Below, piece after piece: positions 1,476 through 25,112 of a stretch of 44,329 bases of DNA; the first letter of the stretch is position 1, and each line of letters begins with the position of its first letter. A program made the translations under genes and the position numbers. This stretch comes from Chloroflexota bacterium (lineage in GTDB: Bacteria; Chloroflexota; Limnocylindria; Limnocylindrales; CSP1-4), in the NCBI GenBank assembly GCA_021783595.1, contig JAJXTS010000004.1:1-44329 (forward strand), given 5' to 3'. The notes below the pieces were generated by a model that was given only the letters and a program-made list of their open reading frames with translations, ran no database searches and was not told where the DNA came from.

Positions 1476-1572
1476 GGGATCTCCGGACTGGGCGGGGTGG
1501 GGCGCCCGACCGGGCGGGGCCGGGCGCCGGGACTGGCGACGGGGTCGGCCCCGCGGCCAGTGGGATCAGGGG

Positions 1573-3036
1573 TCAGGCGCCGAGGGCGGCCTTGCGGTGC
1601 CCCTCGACGAGCCCGACGAGCTCGCGGTCGAGCGCCGGGTCCAGCGGTTCGGGATGGTGGTTCCGGATCAGATGCCGCGCTTTCTCGAGCGCGTCGCGGT
1701 GGTACTTGTCCGGGTCGTCGTGCCACTGGCCGTACGTGCGCCGGTCCAGGTAGCTGGCCTTCCACAGGCCCTTCATCGCCGTGCGCGTGTGCGGGAGCGT
1801 CAGGTACTCGCCGCCCGGCCCCACCTCGGCGATGGCCTCGAGCGAGAGCGCCTCGTCGTCGAACGGGATGCCGCGCAGCATCGCCTCCACGATCGACGCG
1901 ATCTCCGCGTCGAGGATCATCTGCTCGAACGACCAGATCCTCGACCCGTGCAGCAGGCCAACGCCGAGGAGCATGTCCGAGCCGGCGACAGAGGCCATGA
2001 ACGACGACAGCCCGTTCTCGAGGCCGGCCTGCCAGCCGGACGTCTTGTCGCCGGTGGCGAACGCGCCCATCGAGAGCGGCACGTTGTAGAAGTCCGCGAG
2101 GGCGTTGGTGGCCGCGCCGAACAGGAAGTCCTCGGGCCCGCCGCCGGTGTAGGCGCCGGTCCGCAGGTCCATCGCGGTCTGCGCGGCCGCGTAGTAGACG
2201 GGCGAGCCCGGGTACGCCAGCTGCATCAGCGCCATGGCGCTCACGACCTCGGCGTTGCCCACGACCAGCGACCCGGCGATGGTCGCCGGCCCGGAGAACG
2301 CGCACGACGCCATGGTCATGAAGCCCACCGGCACGCCGGCCTCGGCCGCGATCAGGGAGGCCTCGATCGGGCCGCCGTCGTGGGCCAGCGGGCTGATCGT
2401 GCACTGCATCAGCGAGAGCACGGGACGCCGGCGCAGGGCCTCGCGCCCGCCGGCCACCGCCGCCGCCATGGCGATCGCGGTGCGGGCGTCCTCGGCCGTG
2501 ACCACGGTCTCGGTCTGGACGTGCTTGGTGGAGTTGCGCCAGACGGCGAGCAGCTCCTCGTGGGTGCGCGTCGCCGGGTCCGAGTCCTGCGCGGAAACGG
2601 CGACCCAGTGGAAGCCCACCTGGCCGAGCGCGTCGGCGACGCGGGCGATGTCCGCGACGTCCTGCAGCGAGGACCGGCGGACCTGGAGCGTCCACGGGTC
2701 CAGCACCTCGATGCCGCAGCCGTCGGTGGCGATGTGGACGTGGTGGCCGTCGAGCGGCAGGTCCTGGGCCGGGTTCCGCGCGGCCAGGGTGTACGCCGGC
2801 GGGGCCGTCTTGAGCGCGGCCTCGATGACGTGCGCGGGCACCTTCACGATGCTCGTCGCGCGGTCCACGGTGGCGCCGTGGGCAGCCCAGATGTCGAGGG
2901 CCTGCTCGGACGGGAACTTGACGCCGACCTTCTCGATGACCTCGAGGGTGGCCTGGTGGATGCGGTTGATGGCGGCGGGCGAGAGCACCTCGAGACGAGG
3001 GCGCACCCCAGCAGCTGTTGCCGGTGCCGTGTTCAT
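1573..3036 (-). CDS. trimethylamine methyltransferase (MttB) family protein, second paralogue
   Basis: Internal start MNTAPATAAGVRPRLEVLSPAAINRIHQATLEVIEKVGVKFPSEQAL; paralogous to 3..1475; no in-frame amber codon. Confidence 0.9.
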   Translation of the reverse strand: MNTAPATAAGVRPRLEVLSPAAINRIHQATLEVIEKVGVKFPSEQALDIWAAHGATVDRATSIVKVPAHVIEAALKTAPPAYTLAARNPAQDLPLDGHHVHIATDGCGIEVLDPWTLQVRRSSLQDVADIARVADALGQVGFHWVAVSAQDSDPATRTHEELLAVWRNSTKHVQTETVVTAEDARTAIAMAAAVAGGREALRRRPVLSLMQCTISPLAHDGGPIEASLIAAEAGVPVGFMTMASCAFSGPATIAGSLVVGNAEVVSAMALMQLAYPGSPVYYAAAQTAMDLRTGAYTGGGPEDFLFGAATNALADFYNVPLSMGAFATGDKTSGWQAGLENGLSSFMASVAGSDMLLGVGLLHGSRIWSFEQMILDAEIASIVEAMLRGIPFDDEALSLEAIAEVGPGGEYLTLPHTRTAMKGLWKASYLDRRTYGQWHDDPDKYHRDALEKARHLIRNHHPEPLDPALDRELVGLVEGHRKAALGA

Positions 3037-3119
3037 GCGTGCCTCCGGCCGGGTCGGCTGGCGACCCGGCAGCGTGTGCGGGGCGGCGGGCCGCCCCGGG
3101 GATCGCTGCGCGAGGGCGG

Positions 3120-3767
3120 TCAGGCCCCGACGAGCTGGCGGACGAGGGCCACCGCCCCGATGGCATCCTCGCTGTACCCGTCGGCGCCGATCTCGGCCGC
3201 CCAGGTCGCGGACGCGGGGGCGCCGCCGACGATGACCCGGCACTTGGGGCGCAGGCCGGCCGCGTCGAATTTCTCGACCACCGTGCGCTGGCCGGCCATC
3301 GTGGTGGTCAGCAGCGCCGACACGCCGACGATGTCCGCGCCGTGCTCCTGCGCCGCCGCGACGAAGCGGTCCGGGTCCACGTTGACGCCGAGGTCGTGGA
3401 CCTCGAAGCCGCTCGTGGCGAGCATCATGCCCACGAGGTTCTTGCCGATCTCGTGGATGTCGCCCTTGACCGTGCCCAGCACGACCCGGCCCAGCACGTG
3501 GCGCTCGGTGGCCTCCGCCTTCATGACCGGCTCAAGGATGGCGACGGCCCTCTGCATCGCGCGGGCGGACAGCATCATGTCGGGCAGGAAGAGCTCGCCG
3601 ATGGCGAACTGCTCGCCGACGTACGTCAGGCCCGGCACGAAGCCCTTGTCGATCGCGTCCAGGGGCGGGACACCGTTCGCCAGCGCCCGCTCGGCCAGGG
3701 CAGCCGATGCAGCCGCGTCGCCGTCGATGACCGACTGGCGCATCTGGGCGAACAGTTCCTCGCTCAT
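3120..3767 (-). CDS. corrinoid (B12-binding) methyltransferase protein, MtbC/MttC-like
   Basis: MSEELFAQMRQSVIDGDAAAS...VLGTVKGDIHEIGKNLVGMMLATSGFEVHDLGVNV: the DxHxxG motif (DIHEIG) of cobalamin-binding proteins; GAGGA upstream of ATG. Confidence 0.93.
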   Translation of the reverse strand: MSEELFAQMRQSVIDGDAAASAALAERALANGVPPLDAIDKGFVPGLTYVGEQFAIGELFLPDMMLSARAMQRAVAILEPVMKAEATERHVLGRVVLGTVKGDIHEIGKNLVGMMLATSGFEVHDLGVNVDPDRFVAAAQEHGADIVGVSALLTTTMAGQRTVVEKFDAAGLRPKCRVIVGGAPASATWAAEIGADGYSEDAIGAVALVRQLVGA

Positions 3768-3814
3768 GTCGTCATTCCTCCGGTCGCCGCGCCGGCACGC
3801 GCCGGCGGTGGGGT

Positions 3815-3828
3815 GCGTCACGTGACGC
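3815..3828. promoter_or_regulatory. perfect 14-bp palindrome GCGTCACGTGACGC, candidate operator upstream of the corrinoid protein gene
   Basis: Exact self-complementarity, about 48 bp upstream of the corrinoid-protein start in the divergent intergenic region. Confidence 0.4.
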
Positions 3829-4114
3829 GGATCAGGTCCCGAGCGGCGTCCGGGGTGGCGGGACGGCGGGTTCGTGCCCGTGCCCGACACGGCCGACGGC
3901 CGGCGCCCATGGCTCCGGCGACCGGCACGGACAGTCGCAGGATGATGGATATCACCTTATTGGCACGGCGGGGACGGCCTGATGCGCGGCAAGGAACGCC
4001 CTCCCGCGTGGCGCCGGAGCGGCGGCTGCCCGGCGGGGGAGCCGAGGCGGAAGGTCCCATCCCCGCGGGCCGCACGGCTGGGCGGGTTGCGGGGGTCCCA
4101 ACTAGACTTCCCGC

Positions 4115-5734
4115 ATGCCCGATTTCGTCCACGGGTCCGAGCGGCGCCCGCTCGTGCCCGGCCAGACCATCTTCGACGTGGCCGGCGAGCTGTCCGTGGT
4201 GGTTCCCGCCTCGTGCAACAAGACGGGCCGCTGCCACGAGTGCGTGGTGGAGATCCGGTCGGGCGGCAGCCAGCTCGCGCCGCGAACCGAGGAGGAGTCG
4301 TTCCTCGGCCCCACGTTCCGCCTCGCGTGCCAGGCGCGGGTGGCCGCGGCCGAGGAGGACGTGGAGTTCAGCGTCCTGCGCCGTCGCCTGCGGATCCTGC
4401 TGGCGCCGGACGAGCAGCGAGCGGACCTGGACCTCGACCCCGCCGTGCGGGAGGTGAACGGCCACCTCGTCGCGGACGACGGCACGGACCTCGGGGTCGC
4501 GGGCGGGGCGCCGGTCGGGGTCGCCGTGGACATCGGGACCACGACCGTGGTGCTGGAGCTGGTGGACCTGCGGACGGGCGCCGTGCTGGCGATCGCGTCC
4601 ATCGAGAACCCCCAGCGCTTCGGCGGCAGCGACGTGATGACCCGCATCACGTACGAGGCCGAGGTGCCGGGCGAGCTCCGCCTCTCGTTGCGGCGGGCGC
4701 TCAACCACGAGCTCAAGCGGCTGTGCGCGGACCTGGGCCTGGACCGCAAGCAGCTCGTGGAGATGGTGATCGTCGGCAACCCGACGATGCGCGACCTCGC
4801 GCTCAACCTGGACATCCTGCCCATCGGCCGGCTGCCGTACCGCTCGGTCACCGAGACGGCGTGGCGCGACGGCACGGCGCCGTCCACGATGGTCTCGCGG
4901 CGCGCCCACGAGCTGGGCCTGCTCATCCACCCGCAGGCACGGGTGGTCGCGGGGCCCCTCATCGCCTGCCATGTTGGCGCGGACGCCGCCGCGGACCTCG
5001 TGGCGGTGGACGCGATCGAGCGGGGCGGCTCGTTCCTGCTGGTGGACATCGGCACCAACACCGAGATCGTCGCCTCGGACGGGCACCGCATCCTGGCCGC
5101 CTCCAGCCCGGCCGGGCCCGCGTTCGAGGGCGGCGGCGTCCGCTACGGGATGCCCGGCGCCGACGGCGCAATCGAGAAGGTCGGCCTGCGGGACGGCCGG
5201 TTCCAGATCGAGGTCATCGGCGACGCGCCGCCCGAGGGGATCTGCGGGTCCGGCCTGGTGGACCTGCTCGCGGTCCTGCGGCGCTCGGGCCGGATGACCG
5301 ATCGCGGAGCCTTCGCGGACCGCGCGGACGAGTTCCGGATCGTGGACCAGCCCCGCATCACCCTCTCGCGCGCCGATGTGGGCCACCTCTCGATCGCGAA
5401 GGCGGCGACCGCGGTCGGCCAGCGCGTCCTGCTCCGGCGGCTCGGCCTGCGGCCCGAGGACCTCGACCGCGTGTACCTCGCCGGCGGCTTCGCCAATGCG
5501 CTCGACATTCGCACCGCGGTGGAGATCGGCCTCCTGGTGGACGCCCGTCCCGAGCGCATGACCCGCGTGGGCAACGCGTCCATCGCCGGCGCCCGAGCGC
5601 TGCTCCTGTCCCGGCGCCGTCGGGCCGAGCTCGACGACATCGTTCGCCGCATCGAGCACGTGGAACTAGAGTCCGAGCCGGACTTCTTCGACATGTTCAC
5701 CGACGGCTGCCTGTTCGACCCCATCGCTGTCTGA
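4115..5734 (+). CDS. [2Fe-2S]/ASKHA-domain corrinoid activation protein (RACo-like, DUF4445 family)
   Basis: N-terminal 2Fe-2S pattern CNKTGRCHEC...CQARV, then VAVDIGTTTVVLELVDL and LLVDIGTNTEIV nucleotide-binding motifs. Confidence 0.92.
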   Translation: MPDFVHGSERRPLVPGQTIFDVAGELSVVVPASCNKTGRCHECVVEIRSGGSQLAPRTEEESFLGPTFRLACQARVAAAEEDVEFSVLRRRLRILLAPDEQRADLDLDPAVREVNGHLVADDGTDLGVAGGAPVGVAVDIGTTTVVLELVDLRTGAVLAIASIENPQRFGGSDVMTRITYEAEVPGELRLSLRRALNHELKRLCADLGLDRKQLVEMVIVGNPTMRDLALNLDILPIGRLPYRSVTETAWRDGTAPSTMVSRRAHELGLLIHPQARVVAGPLIACHVGADAAADLVAVDAIERGGSFLLVDIGTNTEIVASDGHRILAASSPAGPAFEGGGVRYGMPGADGAIEKVGLRDGRFQIEVIGDAPPEGICGSGLVDLLAVLRRSGRMTDRGAFADRADEFRIVDQPRITLSRADVGHLSIAKAATAVGQRVLLRRLGLRPEDLDRVYLAGGFANALDIRTAVEIGLLVDARPERMTRVGNASIAGARALLLSRRRRAELDDIVRRIEHVELESEPDFFDMFTDGCLFDPIAV

Positions 5735-5744
5735 GGTTGTTGCC

Positions 5745-7490
5745 ATGAGCCCCGCGCCCAACCCCGCCGACGCCGCGTCCGCCCCGGCAGCCCCTTCCGC
5801 CGGTCCCGGCGCCCTGCGCGCGGCCCTGTCCTCGCCGGCCTCGTTCGCCACCGTGGTGGAGCTGGTGCCCTGGGCGGGCGAGCTCGTGGACCCCAAGGGC
5901 GCCTCGCAGCTCAAGGCCGCCCGGGAGCTGGCCGGCAATCCGCGGGTCACCGCGATGTCCATCACCGACAACGCGGGCGGCCACGCCAAGCTCTCGCCGT
6001 CCGCGCTCGGGGCCGAGGTCGCCAAGCTCGGCCATGACGCCATCGTCCACGTCGCCTGCCGCGACCGCTCGCGCAACGCGCTCCAGAGCTTGGGCTGGGA
6101 GCTGCTCAGCCGCGGGCTCACCTCGGTGCTCGCGCTGACCGGCGACTACCCGGAGTCCGGCTACGAGGGCCTGTCGCGGCCGGTCTTCGACATCGACTCC
6201 GCGGCGCTGCTCCACATGTATCGCGGCCTGGGCGAGGAGGCGGCGGCCAAGGCCGCGGCGGCCGACCCGGAGGCGGACCCGAACGCCCACCGGTTCCTGC
6301 TGGGCTGCGCCATCGACCCCTACAAGCGCGTCGAGCGCGACCTCGTGCCGCAGTACCTCAAGCTCGCGCTCAAGGTGCGCAGCGGGGCGGACTACGCCAT
6401 CGCGCAGGTGGGCTACGACGCGCGCAAGCTGGCCGAGCTGCTGGCGGTCATCCGGCGCGACAGCCTGGGCATCCCGGCCGTCGCCAACGCGTACATCCTC
6501 TCGGCGCCGGTCGCCCGGGCCTTCAACGCCGGCAAGGTCCCCGGCTGCGTGGTCACCGACGACCTGCTCGCGGTGGCCGAGCAGCAGGCCAAGGCGGCCG
6601 ACAAGGGCCGCGCGTTCTTCCTCGAGTTCGCGGCCAAGCAGGCCATCGTGGCGCGCGGGCTCGGCTTCAAGGGCGTCTACTTCTCCGGCCACCGCAACGC
6701 GGGCGAGATCGCCAAGATCCTCGAGCTGATCGACGCCCACCCGGCCGACGACTGGAAGGCGCTCCTGCCGGACGTCTCGTGGGCGCTGCCGGCCGCGTTC
6801 CAGCTGTTCGAGCGCGATGGGGACGGCCTGCCCACGGGTGCGCCCGCCAAGGCCTACGCCCGCTCGATCACGCCAGCGGCCCGCAAGGCGGCCCGGTCCA
6901 AGGTGGACCCGCTCTACCGCTTCAGCCGGATCGTGCACCAGCGCGCGTTCGAGCCGGGCGTGCCCGGGTTCAACGCCTGGGGCAAGGTCTTCGAGCAGAT
7001 CGAGCAGCACAAGCTCGACAAGCCGGTCCACGTGTTCGAGCAGGCCGTCAAGCTGCCCATGTACGACTGCCGGGACTGCGGCGACTGCTCGCTGCCCGAC
7101 ATCGCCTACCTGTGCCCCGAGAGCCACTGCCAGAAGAACCAGCGCAACGGTCCGTGCGGCGGCGCGCACGACGGCCTGTGCGAGGTACCGGGCCACACCT
7201 GCATCTGGGCGGACGCCTACAAGCGCCTCAAGCCGTACGGCGAGGAGCTCGCGATGCTCGACCGGGCGCCGGTGTTCCAGGACAACACGCTGCGGCGCAC
7301 CTCCGCCTGGGGCAACGCGTTCCTCGACCGGGACCACATCGCCAAGCGGCTGGGCCGCGCCAGGCTCCCCGAGGCCGCGCCCGCGCCGGCGCCCAAGCCT
7401 GCGCTGGCGGCCCCGAAGCCGGATGCTGCGCCGGCCGGCCCCAAGCCCGACGCCGAGGGGCCGGCCCCCAAACCCGACGCGACCAGGTGA
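5745..7490 (+). CDS. methylenetetrahydrofolate reductase (MetF-like) fused to a C-terminal MTHFR_C-type Cys-rich domain
   Basis: MetF-like TIM barrel (ELVPWAGELVDPKGASQLKAA...SITDNAGG...LALTGDYPE) and Cys-rich domain YDCRDCGDCSLPDIAYLCPESHCQKNQRNGPCGG; Pro/Ala/Lys-rich tail. Confidence 0.88.
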   Translation: MSPAPNPADAASAPAAPSAGPGALRAALSSPASFATVVELVPWAGELVDPKGASQLKAARELAGNPRVTAMSITDNAGGHAKLSPSALGAEVAKLGHDAIVHVACRDRSRNALQSLGWELLSRGLTSVLALTGDYPESGYEGLSRPVFDIDSAALLHMYRGLGEEAAAKAAAADPEADPNAHRFLLGCAIDPYKRVERDLVPQYLKLALKVRSGADYAIAQVGYDARKLAELLAVIRRDSLGIPAVANAYILSAPVARAFNAGKVPGCVVTDDLLAVAEQQAKAADKGRAFFLEFAAKQAIVARGLGFKGVYFSGHRNAGEIAKILELIDAHPADDWKALLPDVSWALPAAFQLFERDGDGLPTGAPAKAYARSITPAARKAARSKVDPLYRFSRIVHQRAFEPGVPGFNAWGKVFEQIEQHKLDKPVHVFEQAVKLPMYDCRDCGDCSLPDIAYLCPESHCQKNQRNGPCGGAHDGLCEVPGHTCIWADAYKRLKPYGEELAMLDRAPVFQDNTLRRTSAWGNAFLDRDHIAKRLGRARLPEAAPAPAPKPALAAPKPDAAPAGPKPDAEGPAPKPDATR

Positions 7491-10266: not shown

Positions 10267-10476
10267 GCGAGGCCGGTCGGGCACCCCGGGCCGCCGGCGC
10301 AGTCCCGCGCCTGACGCCGTCGGCGACGAGCTCGTCGGCCTCGTCCCCAACGGCCTGCGGCCCGCGGTCGCGCCGCGCCCCGGAGCGCGGCCCTCCGGGC
10401 TGACCCGCGAATGGCGCGCTCCGTTTCGGGCCGTTCGGCACGTCTGGGTCGGGCCTCTCTGGCCGACGCTACCCGC

Positions 10477-12876
10477 ATGGCTGCAACCGTCCACCCGGAC
10501 GCGCGCGTCCCGGCCGCCGATCCTCACCGTGTCGCCCGCGCGCTGATTGTCGAGGGCGTGGTCCAGGGCGTCGGCTTCCGCCCGTTCGTCTGGCGCCTGG
10601 CCACCGAGCTCGGGCTTGCCGGGCGCGTCCGAAACGCGGCCGGGCGGGTCGAGGTGGAGGCTGCCGGGTCCCGCGAGGCGCTGGACGCCCTGGCCCGCCG
10701 GCTGCGCACGGACGCGCCGCCTCGCGCCCGCGTGGAGCGGGTGACCGCGCGGCCGCTGGACCCCGTGCTCGCCGCCGGGCTGCCGGCCGGCTTCGAGATC
10801 GACGAGAGCGTCGTGGCGGCCGCGCAGGACCGGCTCTTCCCGCCGGACATCGCCACCTGCGACGACTGCCTGTCCGAGCTGTTCGACCCGACCGACCGCC
10901 GCTACCGCTACCCGTTCACCAACTGCACCAACTGCGGCCCGCGGGCCACGATCATCGACGAGCTGCCGTACGACCGCGCCCAGACCACGATGCGCGAGTT
11001 CCCGCTGTGCGAGGCCTGCGAGCGCGAGTACCGGGACCCGGCGAACCGCCGCTTCCACGCCGAGCCGGTGGCGTGCCCGGTCTGCGGGCCGCGGCTCTCG
11101 TGGCGGGCCACGGGCGCGCCGGCGCCATCGGCAACGGGCGAGGCGGCGCTGGTCGCGGCGATCGGCGCCCTGCGTGACGGGCAGATCGTCGCGGTCAAGG
11201 GCCTGGGCGGCTACCACCTCGCCTGCGACGCGACCGACGAGGCCTCCGTGCGTCGGCTCCGCGACCGCAAACGGCGCTGGGCGAAGCCCTTGGCGGTGAT
11301 GGTCCGCGACCTGCCGGCGGCCGAGGAGCTGTGCCGTGTCGGCGCCCTGGAGCGACGCCTGCTCACCGGACCGGCGCGGCCGATCGTCCTGCTGGAGGCG
11401 CGGCGGTCCGCCCGGCAGGCCCTCGCCCGGTCCGTTGCCGCGGGCAACCGTCGCCTCGGCGTCTTCCTGCCGTACACCCCGCTCCACCACCTGCTGCTCG
11501 CCCACCTCGGCCGGCCGCTGGTCCTGACGTCGGGCAACCTCACCGACGAACCCCTCGCGACCGACGACGAGGAGGCCCTGGTGCGCCTCGCCGGCCTCGC
11601 GGACGCGTTCCTCGCCCACGACCGCCAGATCCGGGCGCGCTACGACGACTCGGTCACGCGGGTGGTGGCAGGCCGCGAGTCGCTGGTCCGCCGCGCCCGC
11701 GGCTACGCCCCGGAGCCGATGCCGCTGCCGATCGCGACGCCCGTCCCGCTGCTTGCCGTGGGCGCCGAGCTCAAGCACACGTTCACCCTCGCGCGCGGGT
11801 CGCGCGCCCACGTGGCCCCGCACAACGGCGACCTCGAGGACCTCGCCACGCACCGAGCCTTCACCGACGGCCTCGCCCACCTGTCGCGGCTGCTCGCGAT
11901 GGAGCCCGAGGTGGCGGTCCACGACCTCCATCCCGAGTACCTGTCCACCAAGTACGCCGTGGCGCGCTTCGCGGCCGCCAAGCGGATCGCGGTCCAGCAC
12001 CACCACGCGCACCTCGCCTCGTGCGCGGCGGAGCACGGAATCACCGGGCCGTTCCTGGGCGTCGCGTACGACGGCCTGGGCATGGGCGACGACGGCACGC
12101 TGTGGGGCGGGGAGGTGCTGCTGGCGGACCTGCGCGGCTACCGACGCCTCGCCCGCTTCGCCCGGGCGCCGCTCCCCGGCGGGGCGCTGGCGGTCAGGCG
12201 GCCGTACCGGATGGCGCTCGGCTACCTGTTCGGCGGCGAGGCGTTCGACGACGACGCCGTCCCGGGGCTGGCGGATGCCGAGGGGGCCGCGGCCGCGTTC
12301 CTGGCCCGCCTCGACCCGCGCGAGACGGCGCTGGTCCGCACCCAGATTGCGCGCCGGCTCAACGCCCCCGTGGCCTCGTCGGCCGGCCGCCTGTTCGACG
12401 CCGCCGCGGCGCTGCTGGGCATCCGCGACGTGGCCGAGTACGAGGCGCAGGCCGCCGTGGACCTGGAGCTCGCCGCCGGCGACCGAAGGGCCCCCGCGCT
12501 CCCGTACCGGCTCCGCTACCAGGACGGGCTGCTCGTCTACGATCCGCGGCCCACGCTTGCCGCGCTGCTCACGGCCCCGGGGCCCGCCGGGACGCTCGCA
12601 GCCGCCTTCCAGGCGACGATCGCGGAGGTCACCCGCGAGCTGCTCTCCGACGCCCGCGCGCGCACCGGGCTCCGGACGGTGTGCCTCTCGGGCGGCGTGT
12701 TCCAGAACCGCCGGCTGGCGTCCGCGCTCCTGCGCGAGCTTGCGTCGGACGGCTTCGAGCCGAACATCAACCGCCAGGTCCCGGTGAACGACGGCGGGGT
12801 GAGTTATGGTCAGGCCGCGATCGCCGCGGCGCGACTCGCAGCCGGCGCCACGGGTGCGCCGCGATCGGAGGGCTGA
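10477..12876 (+). CDS. hypF: carbamoyltransferase HypF ([NiFe]-hydrogenase maturation)
   Basis: Acylphosphatase domain [18 protein letters not shown], zinc-finger [30 protein letters not shown]-terminal [14 protein letters not shown]; start placed at [11 protein letters not shown] within ORF 10411..12876. Confidence 0.95.
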
Positions 12877-12879
12877 ACG

Positions 12880-13230
12880 ATGTGTCTGGGGATCCCGGGG
12901 CGGATCACCGAGATCCGCGACGAGGCCGGCCTCGCCATGGGCAAGGTGGACTTCGGCGGCGTGCGCAAGGACGCCTGCCTCGCCTACCTGCCGGAGGCGC
13001 GGCTGGGCGACTACGTCATCGTCCACGTGGGCTTCGCGATCAGCCGGGTGGACGAGGCGGAGGCCCTCAAGACGCTCCAGATCCTCGACGAGATGGGCGT
13101 CATGGAGCCCGAGCTGATGACCCTGGGCCCCGGCATGGAGGAGCCCGCCCTCATCAGCGACGACGACCCGTCGATCTACGTCTTCGACCCGGCGCAGCCG
13201 CCGTCCAACTTGGCCGGCCCCACGGCATGA
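12880..13230 (+). CDS. hypC: HypC/HybG/HupF family hydrogenase maturation chaperone
   Basis: N-terminal MCLGIPGRI signature, 116 aa, between hypF and hypD. Confidence 0.95.
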
Positions 13231-14381
13231 AGTATCTCGACGAGTACCGCGACCCCGTGCTCGCGAAGAGGCTGGTGGCCGAGATCCACCGGATCACCAC
13301 GCGGCCGTGGACCCTCATGGAGGTCTGCGGCGGGCAGACGCACACGATCGTCAAGCAGGGGATCGACGAGGCGCTGCCCGAGGGCGTCCGCATGATCCAC
13401 GGGCCCGGCTGCCCCGTCTGCGTGACGCCGCTCGAGCAGGTGGACAAGGCCCTCGCCATCGCCGCGCGGCCGGACGTGATCTTCACCAGCTACGGCGACA
13501 TGCTGCGCGTGCCCGGCTCGTCGACGGACCTGCTGGCCCTCAAGGCCCGCGGCGCCGACGTCCGCATCGTGTACAGCCCGCTCGACGCGCTCAAGATCGC
13601 GCTCGCGAACCCGGACAAGCAGGTGGTCTTCTTCGCGGTCGGCTTCGAGACCACGGCGCCCGCCAACGCGATGTCGGTGGCGGAGGCTGCCCGGCGGGGG
13701 ATCGACAACTACAGCGTGCTCGTGAGCCACGTGCTGGTGCCCCCGGCCATGACCGCGCTGCTGGACTCGCCCACCAACCGGGTCCAGGGGTTCCTGGCCG
13801 CCGGCCACGTGTGCGCGGTCATGGGCTGGACCGAGTACGAGCCCATCGCCGAGCACTACCGCGTGCCGATCGTGGTCACCGGCTTCGAGCCGCTGGACCT
13901 GCTCGAGGGCGTCTACATGGCCGTCCGCCAGCTGGAGGAGGGGCGCCACGAGGTGGAGAACCAGTACGCGCGCGCCGTCACCCGCGAGGGCGTGCCGCTG
14001 GCCCAGCAGCAGATCCAGCGCGTGTTCGAGGTCGGGCCGCGCAAGTGGCGCGGCGTGGGCGAGATCCCGATGTCCGGCTACCGCCTGCGCCCCGAGTACG
14101 CCCGCTTCGATGCCGAGGAGAAGTTCGACGTCGGCGACATCCGCACCAACGAGCACCCTGCCTGCATGGCGGGCGCCATCCTGACCGGCGAGAAGGTGCC
14201 GCTCGACTGCACCGCGTACGGCACGCTGTGCACCCCGCAGCGGCCGCTCGGCGCGCCGATGGTGTCGTCCGAGGGGACGTGCGCGGCGTTCTTCGCGGCC
14301 GGGCGCGGGCTCGGCGCCGGCCGCGGCTTCTCGGCCGCGCTGCCGCTGGTCCAGGTTGTGCCGGCGGAGGGCGGGCGATGA
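13227..14381 (+). CDS. hypD: hydrogenase maturation protein HypD
   Basis: [16 protein letters not shown]...[11 protein letters not shown]...[15 protein letters not shown] overlap with hypC. Confidence 0.96.
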
Positions 14382-15457
14382 CGGCCGACCGCGAGGCCGG
14401 GGCCACGATCGACGCCGAGGGCATCGCCTGCCCGGCGCCGATCCCCGAGGACCAGCGGGTCATCCTGGGCCACGGATCGGGCGGCCAGCTGTCCGCGGCG
14501 CTGATGCGGGACCTGCTCGCCCCGGCCCTCGCGGCCGCGTCCCCGGGCGGCGTGCTCAACGACGCGGCCGTCGTTGAGATCGGCGGGGCGCGGCTCGCGT
14601 TCACCACGGACTCCTTCGTGGTCTCGCCGATCCGCTTCCCCGGCGGCGACATCGGCGAGCTGGCGGTGAACGGCACGCTCAACGACCTCGCCATGATGGG
14701 CGCCACGCCGGTGGCGATCAGCCTCGCCTACGTCATCGAGGAGGGGCTGCCGCTCGAGGAGCTGCGCACGATCACCCTGTCGGCGGCGGCTGCGGCGCAG
14801 CGGGCGGGCGCGCAGATCGTCACCGGCGACACCAAGGTGGTGGGCCGCGGCGCGGCGGATCGGCTGTTCGTCAACACCGCCGGGATCGGCCTCATCCGCG
14901 ACGGCATGGAGCCGGCGGCGGACCGGGCCCGGCCGGGCGACGCGGTGATCCTGTCGGGGCCCATCGGCCTGCATGGCGTGGCGATCATGAGCGTCCGCGA
15001 GGGGCTCGAGTTCGAGGTGGAGATCGCCTCGGACACGCAGTCGCTGGCCGGCCTGGTGGCGGCCATCGCGGCGGTGGCGCCCGACGTCCACGTCCTGCGC
15101 GACCCCACGCGCGGCGGCCTCTCGTCGGCGCTCAACGAGATCGCGCAGGCGTCAGGCGTGGGCATGGTCCTCGACGAGCCGGCCATCCCGATCCCGGGCC
15201 CGGTGCGAGCCGCGTGCGAGTTCCTGGGCCTGGACCCGCTCCACGTGGCCAACGAGGGCAAGCTGGTGGCGATCGTGCCGGCGGCCTCAGCGGACGCGGT
15301 GCTCGCCGCGATGCGCGCCACGCCCGAGGGCGCCGAGGCCACGCGCATCGGCGAGGTCGTGGCCGACCACCCGGGCATGGTCACGATGCGCACGATCGTG
15401 GGCAGCGAGCGGATCGTGGACATGCTGGTGGGGGAGCAGCTGCCGCGCATCTGCTGA
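14378..15457 (+). CDS. hypE: hydrogenase maturation protein HypE
   Basis: [19 protein letters not shown]...NDAAVVEI; canonical C-terminal PRIC; ATGA overlap with hypD. Confidence 0.96.
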
Positions 15458-17168: not shown

Positions 17169-17537
17169 TCAGACCGTGCCGAGCGCCTCGTCCTCGACCA
17201 GCCGCAGCAGCTCCACGTTGCTTGCCAGGCGCGAGTTGTGGATGCGCCTCGCAACGTCGAGCAGGTCGAAGATCGCCTCGTCCGCCACGGCGTAGATGAT
17301 GGTGGTGCCGTGTCGCTCGGCCGTCACGATCCCCTGCCCGCGAAGGATCGACAGTTGCTGCGACACGGAGGACCCGCCGCTCGAGGTGGCCTCCTGGAGC
17401 TCGCCGACGGAACGCGCCCCGGATCGCAGGAGCTCGAGGATCCAGATCCGCAGCGGGTGGCCAAGGGCCCTGAAGAACTCCGCCTTGAACCGACGGAGCC
17501 GGTCCGCGTCGTCCGGGCGGCTGGCGGTGTCGCTCAT
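17169..17537 (-). CDS. ArsR/SmtB-family (winged-helix) transcriptional regulator, cysteine-free
   Basis: FFRALGHPLRIWILELLRSGARSVGELQEATSSGGSSVSQQLSILRGQGIVTAERHGTTIIYAV. Confidence 0.93.
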   Translation of the reverse strand: MSDTASRPDDADRLRRFKAEFFRALGHPLRIWILELLRSGARSVGELQEATSSGGSSVSQQLSILRGQGIVTAERHGTTIIYAVADEAIFDLLDVARRIHNSRLASNVELLRLVEDEALGTV

Positions 17538-17601: not shown

Positions 17602-17643
17602 ATGCCTCTGCGTCCCCGTCGCGGCTCAGGTCGATGGACCTGA
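17602..17643 (+). CDS. putative leaderless short ORF MPLRPRRGSGRWT overlapping the start of the hydrogenase operon
   Basis: ATG exactly 6 nt after -10-like TATTCT; its TGA (17641-17643) lies inside the first codons of the 17634 gene. Confidence 0.35.
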   Translation: MPLRPRRGSGRWT

Positions 17644-19670
17644 CAGCCGCCGCCGCCTGCCTCCCGCCCGCGATCGCAGCCCTGCTCGCCCTCGCGCTGG
17701 TGGCTGCGGTGCTGCCGGCGGGGACACGCGCGCGATCCGTCAGCTACGGCGCGGCGGCGGCGGCATCGGCCGTCATGGTGGCGCTGTCCCTCGCGGTCCT
17801 GGCGGGCGCGGCGCCGGTCGCCTTCTCGTGGGGTGCCGTCCTGGGCTTCTCCCTCATCGACGTCCGGATCGACAGCCTGGGCGCCGTCTTCGTCCTCATG
17901 CTCGGGCTCGTGGGCACCGTCGCGTCCGTGTACGCCATCGGCTACGCACCGCACCCGGACGCCAGCGGCGCCCACGACGCGCCGGTCCGCTGGGCGGATC
18001 CGGTCCTGGCCGCCTATCCCGTGTTCCTGGGCAGCATGTTCCTCGTGTTCGGCGCGGCGGACCTCGTGGCGTTCCTCATCGCATGGGAGGCCATGGCCGT
18101 GGCGTCCGCGGCGCTCGTGGTGGGCGGGCGGCCGACGCCCGGCCAGGCGCGGGCCGGCTACCTCTACCTCGTCCTCACGCACCTCGCGACCGGCGCCCTC
18201 GTGGTGGCGTTCGCCGTTGCGGCGGCCGCCGGCGGCACGGCCCTCGACGGTCTGCCGGCCGTCGCGCGCTCCATGTCCGGCCCGACGCGGGACCTGCTGT
18301 TCGTGCTGCTCGCCGTGGGGTTCGCGACCAAGGCCGGCGCCGTGCCGCTGCACGTCTGGCTGCCCCGCGCCCATCCCGTCGCGCCCTCGCCCGTGTCGGC
18401 CCTGATGTCGGGCGTCATGGTGAAGGCCGGGATCTACGGGCTGGTCCGGTTCGTGCTGGTCGGTCTCGGGCCGGGACCCGAGTGGTGGGGCATGGTGGTG
18501 CTGGCGATCGGCACCGTGTCGGCGGTCCTTGGGGTGCTGTACGCGCTGATGGAGCACGATCTCAAGCGGCTCCTGGCCTACTCGACCATCGAGAATGTCG
18601 GGATCGTCCTGATCGGCGTGGGCACGGCGATGCTGGCCCAGGCGGCCGGCCTGCCTAGCCTTGCGACGCTCGCTCTCGCGGCGGCCCTGCTGCACGCCCT
18701 GAACCACGCGGCGATCAAGGGGCTGCTGTTCATGGCTGCGGGCTCCATCGCGCAGGCGGCCGGGACCCGCGACCTCAACCGGCTCGGCGGCCTGTGGCGC
18801 GGCATGCCCGTGACCGCCCTCGCGTTCGGCGTCGGCGCGGCGGCGATGGCCGGGGTGCCGCTGCTGGGCGGCTTCGCCGGCGAGTGGCTCACCTTCCAGG
18901 CGCTGCTCGGCGTGGCCGCGTCGGGCGGCGTGTCGGCGGAGGTTCGCTCCGTGCTGCTCCTGGCCGCGGGCGGGCTCGCCCTGGCCGCGGCGCTCGCCCT
19001 GGCGACCTTCGTCAAGGCGACGGGGACCGGCTTCCTCGCGCTTCCCCGCAGCCAGCCGGCGGCGCTCGCCCGCGAACCGGCGCGAGCGATGGTCTGGGCG
19101 ACGGCCGCCCTCGCCGGGGTGTGCGTCGCGATGGGCCTCGCCGCGGCGCCGATCGCCGGGGTGCTGGCGGGAGCTGCCGGGCCGCTGCTCGGCGTCCTGG
19201 GCGGCGCCGAGCCGGCCGGGCTCGTGCTGGGCGGGCCCGGCGGCGCGGGCTACGGACCCCTGGCGGTCGCCGTCGTGCTCGGCGTGGTGTTCGCCGTCGT
19301 CGGGCTGGCCGGTCGTCGGGGCCGTTCCGTCCGGCGTGTCCCGACCTGGACGTGCGGCATCTCGCCGGAGCCGTCGTTCGAGTACACGGCCACCGGCTAC
19401 GCCAAGCTGCTCCGCCTGTACTTCGGGCCGGTCCTCCGCCCGCAGCGCGAGGTCGAGGTGGAGCTCCATCCCGGCACGCCGTTCCCGCGCGCGGTGAGAT
19501 ACCGCGGCGGCGCCCGCCACCTGATCGACGAGCGCCTGTACGTGCCGCTGCACCGGGCGGCCGTGGCGGCCGCGCAGCTCGCCCGCCGGATTCAGAACGG
19601 CAGCCTCCAGCTGTATCTCGCCTACACCGTGATCGCGCTGGTGGTCCTCCTGCTGGTGGCGCGGCCATGA
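17634..19670 (+). CDS. HyfB/HycC-like (NuoL-type) proton-translocating membrane subunit of group-4 hydrogenase
   Basis: 678-aa antiporter-like subunit (FATKAGAVPLHVWLPRAHPVAPSPVSALMSGVMVKAGIYGLVRF; EHDLKRLLAYSTIENVGIVLIG; HALNHAAIKGLLFMAAGSI). Confidence 0.93.
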   Translation: MDLTAAAACLPPAIAALLALALVAAVLPAGTRARSVSYGAAAAASAVMVALSLAVLAGAAPVAFSWGAVLGFSLIDVRIDSLGAVFVLMLGLVGTVASVYAIGYAPHPDASGAHDAPVRWADPVLAAYPVFLGSMFLVFGAADLVAFLIAWEAMAVASAALVVGGRPTPGQARAGYLYLVLTHLATGALVVAFAVAAAAGGTALDGLPAVARSMSGPTRDLLFVLLAVGFATKAGAVPLHVWLPRAHPVAPSPVSALMSGVMVKAGIYGLVRFVLVGLGPGPEWWGMVVLAIGTVSAVLGVLYALMEHDLKRLLAYSTIENVGIVLIGVGTAMLAQAAGLPSLATLALAAALLHALNHAAIKGLLFMAAGSIAQAAGTRDLNRLGGLWRGMPVTALAFGVGAAAMAGVPLLGGFAGEWLTFQALLGVAASGGVSAEVRSVLLLAAGGLALAAALALATFVKATGTGFLALPRSQPAALAREPARAMVWATAALAGVCVAMGLAAAPIAGVLAGAAGPLLGVLGGAEPAGLVLGGPGGAGYGPLAVAVVLGVVFAVVGLAGRRGRSVRRVPTWTCGISPEPSFEYTATGYAKLLRLYFGPVLRPQREVEVELHPGTPFPRAVRYRGGARHLIDERLYVPLHRAAVAAAQLARRIQNGSLQLYLAYTVIALVVLLLVARP

Positions 19671-20623
19671 CGTGGGACGCAGCCTCGCTCCTCCTCGGGC
19701 TGACCCAGACGGCGCTCGCCCTGGCCATCGCCCCGCTCCTGCTGGGGGTGGCCAAGCGCGTCAAGGCGCGTCTTGGCTACCGGACCGGCGCGCCGCTGCT
19801 CCAGCCCTACCGGGATCTCGCCAAGTGGTGGCGCAAGACCCCCGTGGAGAGCGAGGCGTCGAGCGCGGTGACCGCCTGGGCGCCCGCCGCAGTGGTGGCC
19901 GCGATCGTCACCGCGACGCTGCTCGTGCCGCTGGTGGGGGAGCGCCCGCTGCTGGGCGGCTCGGGCGACTTCCTGGTCGTCGTCGGGCTGCTCGCCGGCG
20001 CCCGGTTCCTCATGGCCCTGCTTGCCCTCGACGCGGGCAGCGCCTTCGGCGGCATGGGCAGCAGCCGCGAGGTGGCGATCGCCGCGCTCGTGGAGCCCGC
20101 GCTGCTGCTCGCGCTCGCCGTGGCCGCCGTCGCGGTCGGGAGCACCGACCTCGCGGTCATCGCCGGCGCCGGCGTGGCGCGCGGTCTCGCCTGGCTCACC
20201 CCGTCGCTGCTGCTTGGCGCCGCGGCGTTCGCGCTGGCGGCCGTCGCCGAGACGGGCCACGAGCCGTTCGACAACCCCGACACGCACCTTGAGCTCACGA
20301 TGGTCCACGAGGGGATGCTGCTGGAGGCGTCCGGGCCCCGGCTGGCGATGCTCGCGTACGCCGCGCAGCTGCGCCTCGTCGTGGTGGCATCGCTGTTCGC
20401 GGCCGCGTTCTTCCCGTTCGGCATGACCGTCGCGCTCACGCCGCTGTCGGTCGCCGTCGCGCTCGCCGCCGCGGTCGCCAAGCTGCTCGCCGCGGCCGTC
20501 GCGCTGGCGCTCCTCGACGCCGGGCTCGCGAAGCTTCGGATCCTGGCGCTGCCGGGCCTGCTCGGGTTCGCCTCCACGCTGGCCGTGATCGGGCTCGCTG
20601 CCCGCCTTTGGCTGCCGGCATGA
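19667..20623 (+). CDS. HyfC/HycD-like (NuoH-type) membrane subunit
   Basis: PLLQPYRDLAKWWRKTPVESEASS...ETGHEPFDNPDTHLELTMVHEGMLLEASG; ATGA overlap. Confidence 0.94.
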   Translation: MTWDAASLLLGLTQTALALAIAPLLLGVAKRVKARLGYRTGAPLLQPYRDLAKWWRKTPVESEASSAVTAWAPAAVVAAIVTATLLVPLVGERPLLGGSGDFLVVVGLLAGARFLMALLALDAGSAFGGMGSSREVAIAALVEPALLLALAVAAVAVGSTDLAVIAGAGVARGLAWLTPSLLLGAAAFALAAVAETGHEPFDNPDTHLELTMVHEGMLLEASGPRLAMLAYAAQLRLVVVASLFAAAFFPFGMTVALTPLSVAVALAAAVAKLLAAAVALALLDAGLAKLRILALPGLLGFASTLAVIGLAARLWLPA

Positions 20624-21285
20624 TTCTCGACCCGAGCACCGCCTCGCAGCTCGTGGACGCGGTCGCCGCGGCGGTCGTGGTCCTGGGCATCGGCATCGCC
20701 TCCACGCGGTCGCTCGGCCGGATGATCTGGGTGACGGCCGCCCAGTCCGCGCTGGTGGGCGCCGCCGCGCTCGTCGTGGCGGCCGCGACCGGGGCCGCCC
20801 ACCTGGCGCTTGGCGGCGTGCTGGCGATCGGCGTCAAGGGCGTCGTGGTGCCCCTGGTGCTGGGGTCCATCCTGCGGCGGTCCTCGGTGCGTCAGGAGCG
20901 CCGCCCGGTCGTGGCGCCCCGCGTCACGTTCGTGCTGGCCGTGGTCATCGTGTTCGTCGCCACCGCCGCCACCCACGACGTCCGGCTGCCCGTGGCGCTC
21001 GACGCCGCCCGTGCGCTGCCCGCGGCCATCAGCACGCTGCTCACGGGGCTGCTGATCGTCATGACCCGGCGCAAGACGCTGTCGCTCGTGGTGGGGCTGC
21101 TGGTGTTCGAGAACGGGATCGCGCTGGCCGCGTTCTCGCTCGTGTACGCCATGCCGATCGTGGTGGAGCTGGGCGTCCTGTTCGACCTGCTCATCGCCGT
21201 TGTCGTGGCGTGGGTGTACTCGCGCCGGATGCTCGACGTGCTCGGCACGCTGTCCACCGACGAGCTGCGGAACCTGCGCGGATGA
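20620..21285 (+). CDS. HyfE-like membrane subunit
   Basis: GLLIVMTRRKTLSLVVGLLVFENGIALAAFSLVYAMPIVVELGVLFDLLIAVVV; ATGA overlap; operon position. Confidence 0.9.
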   Translation: MILDPSTASQLVDAVAAAVVVLGIGIASTRSLGRMIWVTAAQSALVGAAALVVAAATGAAHLALGGVLAIGVKGVVVPLVLGSILRRSSVRQERRPVVAPRVTFVLAVVIVFVATAATHDVRLPVALDAARALPAAISTLLTGLLIVMTRRKTLSLVVGLLVFENGIALAAFSLVYAMPIVVELGVLFDLLIAVVVAWVYSRRMLDVLGTLSTDELRNLRG

Positions 21286-22769
21286 CCGAGCTGCTGACCC
21301 TGGCCATCGCGCTGGCGCCCGTCCTCGGGGCCCTCGCGGCGTGGTCCGCCGGGAAGGGGGGCAGGGCGCGCCTGGCGATGGGCATCGGCATCACCGCGAC
21401 CGGCACCTCCATGGCCGCGGCCGCGGCGCTCGGGGCATGGGTCTTCGCCGCGGGGACCGAGACCGCGTTCTCCGGGCTGGTGACCGTGGACGCACTGGGC
21501 GCGTACATGCTGCTGCTGGTGGCTGCCGTGGCCGCCATCGCGTTGGCGGCGTCGCCCGGGTACCTGGCGCGCCATCGGGCCGACGGCACCCTGCCGCCGC
21601 TCGAGGAGGGAACCTACTGGGCGCTGCTCGCGCTGTTCGCGGGCGGGCTCGCGACGGTGCCGCTGGTCGACAATCTGGGCCTCGTCTGGGTGGGGATCGA
21701 GGCGACGACCGCGGTGTCCGCGCTGCTGGTCGGCTTCACGCGGTCGCCGCGCGCGATCGAGGCGGCCTGGAAGTACCTGATCCTCGGGTCGATCGGGATC
21801 GGCTTCGCGCTGCTCGGCACGATGCTCCTGTTCGCCGCCGCGGGCCCGGCCGCGGACGCCGGCAACGCCCTCGCCTGGACCGAGCTGGGCCGGTCCGCGG
21901 CGAGCCTGGACCCGGAACTGCTGCGCCTGGCGTTCGTGTTCGCGCTCGTCGGCTACGGGACCAAGGCGGGTCTCGCGCCCTTCCACACGTGGCTCCCCGA
22001 CGCCCACAGCCAGGCGCCCGCCCCGATCTCCGCGCTGCTCTCGGGGGCCGGTCTGGCGGTGGCCCTGTACGCGCTGGCGCGGTTCCACCACATCGTCGCG
22101 ACGGCGCTCGGCCCCGGCTTCTCGGGGACGCTCCTGGTCGCCTTCGGCCTGCTCAGCCTGGCCGTGGCCCTGCCGTTCATCGTGGCGCAGGGAGACCTCA
22201 AGCGGCTCCTCGCGTACTCGTCCATCGAGCACCTCGGGCTCGCCACGCTCGCCCTCGGGTTCGGCGGCCGCCTGGCCCTGGCCGGCCTCGCGCTCCACCT
22301 GTTCTGCCACGGGCTCGCCAAGGCGTCCGCGTTCGTCGCGGCCGGCCGGCTCGTCGAGGAGGCGGGCAGCCACCGCATCGGCCGGCTCCGCGGCAGCCTG
22401 ACCCGATCGCCCGCGGCGGCGCGCGCGCTGGTCGTCGCGTCCCTGATGCTGTCGGGCCTGCCGCCGTCGGGCATCTTCGTGGCCGAGCTGGCGATCCTGT
22501 TCGGCGGGGTGGCCGCTGGCTGGGCGCTGGCCGCGGCCGTGGCGGCCGTGCTGCTGGCGCTCGCCGTGGCGGGGCTGCTGTTCCACGTGGCGCGGGTGGC
22601 GGTCGGACCCAACCGCGCGCGCGGGCCGCGAGTCTCCATCCGCGCCCGGACGGCGCTGGCGCTGGCGGCACCGCTGGCGCTGGTGGCGGCAGCGGGCCTG
22701 TGGACGCCGTCGCCGGTGGCGGCCGCCATCGCGCAGATCGTGGCCGTCCTCGGAGGCGGCCATGGATGA
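21282..22769 (+). CDS. HyfF-like (NuoL/M/N-type) membrane subunit
   Basis: YGTKAGLAPFHTWLPDAHSQAPAPISALLSGAGLAVALYALARFH; QGDLKRLLAYSSIEHLGLATL; ATGA overlap. Confidence 0.93.
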   Translation: MTELLTLAIALAPVLGALAAWSAGKGGRARLAMGIGITATGTSMAAAAALGAWVFAAGTETAFSGLVTVDALGAYMLLLVAAVAAIALAASPGYLARHRADGTLPPLEEGTYWALLALFAGGLATVPLVDNLGLVWVGIEATTAVSALLVGFTRSPRAIEAAWKYLILGSIGIGFALLGTMLLFAAAGPAADAGNALAWTELGRSAASLDPELLRLAFVFALVGYGTKAGLAPFHTWLPDAHSQAPAPISALLSGAGLAVALYALARFHHIVATALGPGFSGTLLVAFGLLSLAVALPFIVAQGDLKRLLAYSSIEHLGLATLALGFGGRLALAGLALHLFCHGLAKASAFVAAGRLVEEAGSHRIGRLRGSLTRSPAAARALVVASLMLSGLPPSGIFVAELAILFGGVAAGWALAAAVAAVLLALAVAGLLFHVARVAVGPNRARGPRVSIRARTALALAAPLALVAAAGLWTPSPVAAAIAQIVAVLGGGHG

Positions 22770-24279
22770 GACGAGGGCCGGCGCGTGCGCGCAGGTGCCG
22801 GCGAGCGGCTTGGCCGAGGCGGTGGGCAGGAGCGTTGCGGCAGGCGGCCGGTACGCCATGCTGGTCGGTCTCGACGAGCGCTCGCTGGGCGGCGCAGGGC
22901 TCGGCCTGGAGGCGGTCCTCGTTGGCCCCGGCGGCGACCTGGAGCGGATCCGGGCGGCGGTGCCGCTGGACGCGACGGGCTACCCCTCGATCACGCCCCT
23001 CGTGCCGGCCGCCCACTGGGACGAGCGCGAGGCGCGCGACCTGCTGGGCACCGTCCCGGTCGGCCATCCGGACCCGCGGCGGCTCGTGCTTCACGAGCGT
23101 TGGCCGCGCGGCTACCACCCGCTGCGCAAGGACGTGCCCGTCGGGGCGCGGCCGCCGCTCGCGGACCGTCGCTTCGCGCCGTTCGAGGTGCACGGGGAGG
23201 GGACGTACGCGCTGCCGGTCGGGCCGATCCACGCGGGGATCATCGAGCCCGGCCACTTCCGCTTCTCCGCCATCGGGGAGCGCGTGCTGCACCTCGACCC
23301 GCGTCTGTTCTTCGCCCACCGCGGCCTCGAGAAACTGGCGGAGGGGCGGCCGCTGGCCGGGGCGACGCCGCTCATCGAGCGGGCCTGCGGCGTGTGCGGG
23401 GTGGCGCACGGCGTTGCCTGGGCCAGCGCGGTCGAGGCGCTCACCGGCACCCGGGCCCCGGCCCGTGCCGCATGGGCGCGGGTCCTGCTGGCCGAGCTCG
23501 AGAGGCTCTACAACCACGTCGGCGATCTCGGGAGCATCTGCGCCGGGATCGGTTTCGGGTCCGGCGCGGCGCGCCTGGGGCTGCTTCGGGAGCGCCTGGT
23601 GCGGGCGAACGACGCGCTCGTCGGGCACCGCTACCTCGCGGGGATCGTCGTTCCGGGCGGGCTCGGCCGGCCGCTGGACGCCGCCGCCCTGGCCGCGCTG
23701 CCCGGCCTCGTCGCCGACATCGAGGCCCAGGTGGCCGCCGCGGTGCGGTCGATCGTCCGCTCGGACGGCGTGATGGCCCGCCTCCGGACCACCGGCGCGG
23801 TCCCGGCCGAGACGGCAGCGGCGCTCGGGGCGACCGGCGTCGCCGCGCGGGCCAGCGGGATCGATGCCGACCTGCGTCGCGACCGCCCCTACGCCGCGTA
23901 CGCCGAGCTCGACGTGTCGGTGGCCACCGCCGCCTCGGGCGACGTCGCGGCGCGCTTCCACGTCCGGGCGCAGGAGGCGGCCGCGTCCGCTCGGCTGGTG
24001 GTCGAGGCCGCTCGCAGGCTGCCCGTCGGCGAGGATCGGGTGCCGCTCGGTGAGGCTCGTGCCGGCGAGGTTGCGATCGCGGGTGTCGAGGGGCCGCGGG
24101 GCGCGTCCTGGCTGTGGCTGCGGGCGGGTGACGCCGGGACCGTGGACCGCGTCCGGCTGCGCTCGGCGTCGTTCGCCAACTGGCCCCTGGTGGCGGCCGC
24201 CATGCCCGGCAACGTGGTGCCCGACTTCCCGCTCATCAACAAGAGCTTCGAGCTCTGCTACGCCTGCACGGACCGCTGA
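22762..24279 (+). CDS. group-4 [NiFe]-hydrogenase large subunit (HycE/HyfG-like; NuoC-NuoD fusion)
   Basis: NuoC-like N-terminus (PAAHWDEREARDLLG), NuoD-like body, L1 motif ERACGVCGVAH, terminal L2 motif SFELCYACTDR-stop. Confidence 0.94.
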   Translation: MDETRAGACAQVPASGLAEAVGRSVAAGGRYAMLVGLDERSLGGAGLGLEAVLVGPGGDLERIRAAVPLDATGYPSITPLVPAAHWDEREARDLLGTVPVGHPDPRRLVLHERWPRGYHPLRKDVPVGARPPLADRRFAPFEVHGEGTYALPVGPIHAGIIEPGHFRFSAIGERVLHLDPRLFFAHRGLEKLAEGRPLAGATPLIERACGVCGVAHGVAWASAVEALTGTRAPARAAWARVLLAELERLYNHVGDLGSICAGIGFGSGAARLGLLRERLVRANDALVGHRYLAGIVVPGGLGRPLDAAALAALPGLVADIEAQVAAAVRSIVRSDGVMARLRTTGAVPAETAAALGATGVAARASGIDADLRRDRPYAAYAELDVSVATAASGDVAARFHVRAQEAAASARLVVEAARRLPVGEDRVPLGEARAGEVAIAGVEGPRGASWLWLRAGDAGTVDRVRLRSASFANWPLVAAAMPGNVVPDFPLINKSFELCYACTDR

Positions 24280-24281
24280 CC

Positions 24282-25112
24282 ATGCCCTTCGACGTGCTCG
24301 ACCGCTACCTGCGACCGCTTCGCCACGGCCGCGCCACCAGCCGCTATCCCGCCGAGGCGCCGGACCTGTCGCCGGCGTCGCGCGGGCTGCCGGCCCTCGA
24401 CGCGGCAGCGTGCGACCGGAGCGGCTCGTGCGCGGCCGTCTGCCCGACGGGCGCGATCAAGCTGGAGTCGGACGGCTGGCGGCTCGATGCGGGCTCCTGC
24501 CTGCTGTGCGACGCCTGCGTCGCGGCCTGCCCGACCGGCGCGCTGGGCCACACCGGCGAGATCGAGCTGGCGACCCGTCGCCGGAGCGACCTGGTGGTGC
24601 TGGGCGAGCCGCCCTGGGCCGTCGAGGGGGGCGCCGCCGGCAAAGCCCTCGCCGAGGCGAGAGCCCTGGCCGACGCGAACGCCCTCGCCACCGCGATCGA
24701 CCGTCGCCTGGGCCGGTCGCTCCACGTCCGCCACCTCGACGCCGGCTCCTGCAACGGGTGCGACTGGGAGATGAGCGCCCTGCTCAACCCGTACCACGAC
24801 GTCACGCGGTTCGGCGTGGACTTCGTGGCCTCGCCGCGCCACGCGGACGTGCTCCTGGTGACGGGCACGATGACCCGCAACCTCGAGGAGGCCGCGGTGC
24901 GGACGTACGAGGCCATGCCGGAGCCGCGGCTGGTCGTGGCGGTTGGCGCCTGCGCCATCGGCGGCGGGGTCTTCGCCGGCAGCTACGCCGGGCGGGACGG
25001 CATCGGCGAGGTGCTGCCGGCGGACGTGCTCATCCCGGGCTGCCCGCCGCGCCCGGAGGCGCTGATCCAGGGCCTGCTGCTGCTTGCCGACCGCTGGGTC
25101 CCGCGCGGGTAG
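24282..25112 (+). CDS. hydrogenase small subunit (NuoB/HycG-like) fused to N-terminal 2[4Fe-4S]-ferredoxin-like domain
   Basis: Ferredoxin motifs CDRSGSCAAVCPTGAI and CLLCDACVAACPTGAL, then SCNGCDWE, GACAIGGGVF, PGCPPRPEALIQGLL. Confidence 0.93.
   Translation: MPFDVLDRYLRPLRHGRATSRYPAEAPDLSPASRGLPALDAAACDRSGSCAAVCPTGAIKLESDGWRLDAGSCLLCDACVAACPTGALGHTGEIELATRRRSDLVVLGEPPWAVEGGAAGKALAEARALADANALATAIDRRLGRSLHVRHLDAGSCNGCDWEMSALLNPYHDVTRFGVDFVASPRHADVLLVTGTMTRNLEEAAVRTYEAMPEPRLVVAVGACAIGGGVFAGSYAGRDGIGEVLPADVLIPGCPPRPEALIQGLLLLADRWVPRG

Follow-up and report, generated by a model that had tools for sequence, protein, structure and literature searches.

In Escherichia coli, the large subunit HycE of the group 4a [NiFe]-hydrogenase is made with a C-terminal tail that the protease HycI removes, and the cut falls at the Arg equivalent to R505 of the protein described below. 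HypD and HypF are needed for building the nickel-iron centre itself. Natural large subunits that lack the tail have been published for groups 2b, 2d, 4c, 4e and 4g, together with a description of their canonical Hyp machinery (PMC7294309), and a 2025 review lists groups 2b, 2d, 4c and 4e as tail-less (PMC12134894). Group 4f is, as HydDB is cited in PMC9431212, a putative formate-coupled H2-evolving hydrogenase, and one survey put it aside as unvalidated (PMC9431212). Its reference protein is EhfE of Desulfosporosinus orientis (PMC7811984), and the enzyme of Ca. Jettenia ecosi has been published as 4f (PMC6828613). The Thermus 4f protein is cysteine-less, and its genome is without maturation genes (PMC13019369).

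The window analyzed here is a 44,329-nucleotide stretch from a Chloroflexota bacterium. Within it, a six-gene operon in the order hyfB-hyfC-hyfE-hyfF-hyfG-hyfI spans positions 17634–25112, with hypFCDE located 2.2 kb upstream; six genes are likewise reported for group 4f of Desulfosporosinus, Desulfitobacterium and Thermus (PMC7248197, PMC9888536, PMC13019369). The features are as follows:

10411–15457, plus strand: hypF (10411–12876), hypC (12880–13230), hypD (about 13263–14297) and hypE (to 15457)
17169–17537, minus strand: divergent ArsR-type HTH regulator, by similarity to the ArsR cluster of 4f loci
17634–19670, plus strand: HyfB-type antiporter-like membrane subunit, first of the six operon genes
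19667–20623, plus strand: 318-aa ORF for a HyfC/NuoH-type membrane anchor, identified from its place in the six-gene order
20608–21285, plus strand: HyfE-type membrane subunit (NF008556)
21210–22769, plus strand: HyfF-type antiporter-like membrane subunit; the coordinates are those of the listed ORF, whose true start may lie further downstream
22762–24279, plus strand: HyfG/EhfE-type large subunit (fusion of the 30-kDa and 49-kDa parts), 505 aa, ending CYACTDR-stop without a C-terminal extension (family scans)
23377–23409, plus strand: first CxxC region of the large subunit, ERACGVCGVAH (C209, C212, H216)
24240–24279, plus strand: 3' end of the large subunit, NKSFELCYACTDR-TGA, with the second CxxC (C499, C502) and Glu497-Leu498
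24282–25112, plus strand: small subunit (NuoB/HyfI type) with an N-terminal ferredoxin-like 2x[4Fe-4S] domain and the proximal-cluster cysteines C157, C160, C224 and C254

We assign the window protein to HydDB group 4f (Ehf), whose complexes belong to the complex I superfamily, as a large subunit; group 4f is here taken to mean the tree clade together with the six-gene layout. In the tree, one clade of 102 rows with a support of 100 holds the window protein and its Ca. Jettenia ecosi counterpart (L120), apart from HycE and HyfG. Clade and layout are shared with D. orientis (EhfE/Desor_1265-1270), Ca. Jettenia ecosi and Desulfitobacterium (ACL22288-93), the tree set containing several Desulfosporosinus proteins other than D. 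orientis EhfE itself, and no feature distinguishes the window protein from the published 4f complexes. An AF2 model of the large subunit (mean pLDDT 90) finds HycE as its best PDB match (7z0s_E, TM 0.94), and with the E. coli proteins HycE and HyfG it shares the fold (35% identity), the 30K-49K fusion and both CxxC pairs. NuoD of complex I lacks the Ni-binding cysteines, and the Ehr complexes of the same superfamily have lost them, as has group 4f of Thermus brevis, whereas the window protein keeps all four.

The 505-aa large-subunit ORF ends in VVPDFPLINKSFELCYACTDR and then TGA. In an alignment to the HycE chain, the two sequences close on CYSCTDR (HycE) and CYACTDR (window protein), and R505 falls on the last residue ahead of the 32-residue tails of HycE and HyfG, which start MTVVDVRKK... 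and VTLVDVRKR..., respectively. The window protein therefore ends in CTDR as the mature E. coli proteins do, but has no counterpart of the tail that HycI cuts from HycE. All five NuoD proteins (5/5) stop at this same column, and tails of 15, 21 and 25 residues are present on the other three [NiFe] large subunits encoded by this genome. The stop column is the same in all loci of the protein's own family (60–73% identity, blastp), in all C-termini that can be read at 80 further loci spread over about ten phyla (Chloroflexota, Bacillota, Acidobacteriota, Myxococcota, Planctomycetota, Nitrospirota and others; L121, cut by a contig end, is outside this count) and in 24 more Chloroflexota loci wherever the C-terminus lies within the contig. 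The shared end is CY[AS]CxDR-stop, with CYSCTDL-stop in the Jettenia/Brocadia branch. The original prediction that the subunit stops exactly at the maturation-cleavage position, directly after the Arg and with both CxxC pairs kept, is borne out by these alignments, and the tail-less hydrogenases to which it alluded are a published class (PMC7294309). As that list lacks 4f and the 4f protein is tail-less here, the sequences extend the known tail-less groups to 4f.

A search of the organism's own genome places no HycI-family gene within the window, in agreement with what had been noted earlier, and the full-genome search for HycI/HybD-type proteases that had been suggested returns two PF01750 (HycI-family) genes on other contigs (C130 and C61). 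Each adjoins a tailed group 1 large subunit, which argues against a hidden dedicated protease for 4f. Beside 88 other group 4f loci we found no HycI homologue, and the homologues examined show neither the extension nor, beside the operon, the dedicated protease that the original prediction had named as evidence against itself. To compare genomes, we separated those with a four-cysteine 4f protein and no further [NiFe]-type large subunit (sole-4f; n = 11) from 43 that hold a 4f protein and another [NiFe]-type large subunit; the table is made up of four-cysteine 4f carriers plus two genomes with a CGVD variant, one genome is apparently counted twice in it (G033 and G061), and genomes reached through loci carry no completeness values. 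A PF01750 protease is present in 0/11 sole-4f genomes and in 39/43 of the others (Fisher p = 1.4e-8), and phylogenetically independent pairs split about 8:0 (sign test p about 0.008). Independence of the 4f large subunit from a maturation protease is thus well supported, both by sequence and by genome distribution, because the tail is absent group-wide, no protease lies beside the operon and none occurs in the sole-4f genomes.

The same two sets of genomes differ in their Hyp machinery. Of the Hyp proteins, HypD and HypF were searched genome-wide. HypD occurs in 0/11 sole-4f genomes vs 35/43 with another large subunit (p = 7.9e-7), and HypF, scored by its finger domain, in 0/11 vs 34/43 (p = 1.8e-6); for HypD, independent pairs on the tree split 6–7:0 (median p about 0.016). 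Among the 11 is G021, with a completeness of 96% and a 4f protein that shares 71% identity with that of the window. Additionally, a set of 399 Chloroflexota genomes, sampled at a completeness limit of 90%, yielded ten newly read four-cysteine 4f proteins, and seven of their genomes (G116, G120, G175, G213, G274, G319 and G400; 92–96% complete) have no HypD, counted irrespective of other large subunits. The groups 2b, 2d, 4c, 4e and 4g resemble 4f in their tail-less large subunit and differ in this respect, as their Hyp machinery is described as canonical while 4f often occurs where HypD and HypF are missing. Neither a decoupling of four-cysteine 4f from Hyp nor a family-wide decoupling of 4f from HypD, HypF and the protease is stated in the literature searched.

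The comparison set is an imperfect control. HypD is also missing in 8/43 genomes that hold another [NiFe]-type large subunit, so a gene that an assembly lacks may still exist in the organism; the objection that the HypD search overlooks real genes is upheld to that extent. The implied rate of assembly gaps or an unknown route is near one in five, by which 0/11 would be very unlikely, although not impossible because the carriers are related. A 3b-like subunit is present in five HypD-less genomes (G075, G064, G087, G099 and G023), and in Jettenia ecosi (G075), which has such an enzyme, a lone HypE is the sole Hyp find. The 3b-like subunits L209/L219 (Jettenia ecosi, G075:C67), L210, L213, L215 and L100 carry the motif CGICPVAY, and no HypD or HypF was found in their genomes; in Jettenia ecosi the lone HypE lies upstream of the 3b-like subunit.

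The hypFCDE genes of the window are where they had been reported, near the large subunit, and the organism is therefore one in which the enzyme and Hyp genes occur together. This adjacency is not conserved: the search beside the 88 other 4f loci returned no hypF, hypC, hypD, hypA or hypB homologue, a HypE-like neighbour occurring in L096/L097 only, and the window genes cannot serve as proof of Hyp maturation. In relatives, HypD lies on a contig other than that of 4f (G002, G004, G029, G033 and G007), and in G033 and G017 its contig also carries a group 1 subunit together with the protease of that subunit. On these grounds the enzymes that the window cluster supplies are probably those of groups 1 and 3 in this genome. 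Of the protease-independent maturation route proposed originally, the protease part stands, and the part in which hypFCDE assist [NiFe] maturation is weakened by this lack of adjacency and by the Hyp-less sole-4f genomes.

Most residues of the active-site pocket are kept. Four-cysteine members, the window protein among them (C209, C212, C499 and C502), keep all four Ni-ligand cysteines, the glutamate of E-P-G-H, the canopy Arg and mostly the His, and the kept residues suggest a bound metal. The canopy Asp is the exception. HycE Asp529 is, according to PMC9474812, strictly conserved across hydrogenases and complex I, and Asp-Pro is kept in HycE, HyfG, the Ech-like proteins L023–L025 and NuoD; in the window protein Glu497-Leu498 replaces HycE Asp529-Pro, and among four-cysteine 4f proteins the Asp position is Glu in 79/80 and the following Pro is Leu in 80/80. 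Relatives that have lost the cysteines partly or fully still keep the operon, and the cluster cysteines of the small subunit are kept in nearly all loci, with four-cysteine or cysteine-less large subunits alike. In L019 and L021 (G007 and G008, same genus) CGVD stands for CGVC, the second Cys of the first pair being Asp with the three others kept, and in L124 (Anaerospora hongkongensis) and L138 (Desulfosporosinus UBA8487) the motifs are SGVC/SGIC ... SYAC, with Ser for the first Cys of each pair and the second kept.

Because relatives in many bacteria occur without the protease, HypD and HypF, the window protein may not be an ordinary hydrogenase. The account we favor, with modest confidence, is that the 4f large subunit is made at its final length and independently of Hyp, with a pocket that holds no NiFe(CN)2CO or some other centre. 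The subunit is translated directly at final length and, as its stop sits at the NuoD end and at the HycI cut site of HycE, needs no endopeptidase step, a view supported by sequence and genome distribution; a lack of dependence on the Hyp pathway would be the most likely reason for the missing tail. The four cysteines would line the old [NiFe] pocket, which either lacks the NiFe(CN)2CO cofactor or holds another centre, such as a simple metal ion, a small Fe-S centre or a redox disulfide. Electrons could pass from the ferredoxin-like domain to the proximal [4Fe-4S] cluster and on to the pocket, and this flow could power the antiporter-like arm in the membrane. A canonical Hyp-made NiFe(CN)2CO site appears doubtful for group 4f, and we infer that the pocket can dispense with this cofactor, something else or nothing taking its place in hosts without HypD and HypF. 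This organism, which has hyp genes, may nevertheless load it. More tentatively, it is possible that four-cysteine 4f complexes are not [NiFe]-hydrogenases at all and that they use a centre made without HypD, HypF or the protease, act on a substrate other than H2 and pump ions, as intermediates between group 4 hydrogenases and the cysteine-less complexes.

Calls of H2 production from 4f, which are repeated in genome papers, would be unsafe if four-cysteine members live without HypD and HypF. On the same condition, the family would offer a natural setting in which to test the function of the four-cysteine pocket in the absence of NiFe(CN)2CO, and that of the C-terminal tail.

An alternative that we consider unlikely is a genuine [NiFe]-hydrogenase with ordinary HypA-F maturation, tail-less in the manner of groups 2b, 2d, 4c, 4e and 4g, in which the protease step alone has been dropped. 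The four cysteines and most pocket residues, the hypFCDE genes upstream and the published precedent of tail-less, Hyp-dependent enzymes (PMC7294309) are what such a protein would show; set against them are the missing HypD and HypF in all 11 sole-4f genomes, the seven further HypD-less Chloroflexota genomes, the 88 loci without adjacent hypF, hypC, hypD, hypA or hypB and the Glu in place of the canopy Asp. Somewhat less probable again is a mixed group, in which hosts with Hyp load NiFe(CN)2CO and make H2 while hosts without it use another centre or none. The window genome and 34 others in the table do hold both a 4f protein and HypD, and partial cysteine losses occur in the family (CGVD in L019/L021; SGVC..SYAC in L124/L138). 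Sole-4f and other genomes nevertheless interleave on the tree (10 changes), their 4f proteins have the same pocket residues, and the small clade of the window protein includes L015, a protein 71% identical to it whose genome has neither HypD nor HypF. A sequencing error or frameshift that conceals a C-terminal extension, raised by the original prediction against itself, found no support and can practically be dismissed, as homologues from independent assemblies share the end wherever it is readable and the operon spacing is intact, the HyfI ATG at 24282 following 2 nt past the large-subunit stop.

The neighborhood of the operon gives little indication of a redox partner. Clustering of 4097 ORFs shows no clear conserved redox-partner neighbor (FDH, CODH) beyond the core operon, a result blurred by spurious ORFs in GC-rich DNA. 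ArsR-type HTH genes adjoin group 4f operons in 16 loci from several phyla; a sulfide-sensing ArsR was considered and rejected, as the neighboring ArsR proteins have no conserved cysteine pair. Positions 3–7490 of the window encode two MttB-type methyltransferases, a RACo/AcsV-type corrinoid activator and an MTHFR fused to DUF5981, a gene set that is methylotrophic or Wood-Ljungdahl-like. Cysteine-less 4f-like subunits (SGDE ... SYAG[TN]DL) occur in family f10, among them L195, L197, L201 and L203; HypD is present in their genomes, which are 1.4–2.1 Mb in size, mostly single-contig and 99–100% complete. At one locus, L144, two 4f-like large subunits occur together, one with four cysteines and the other with none.
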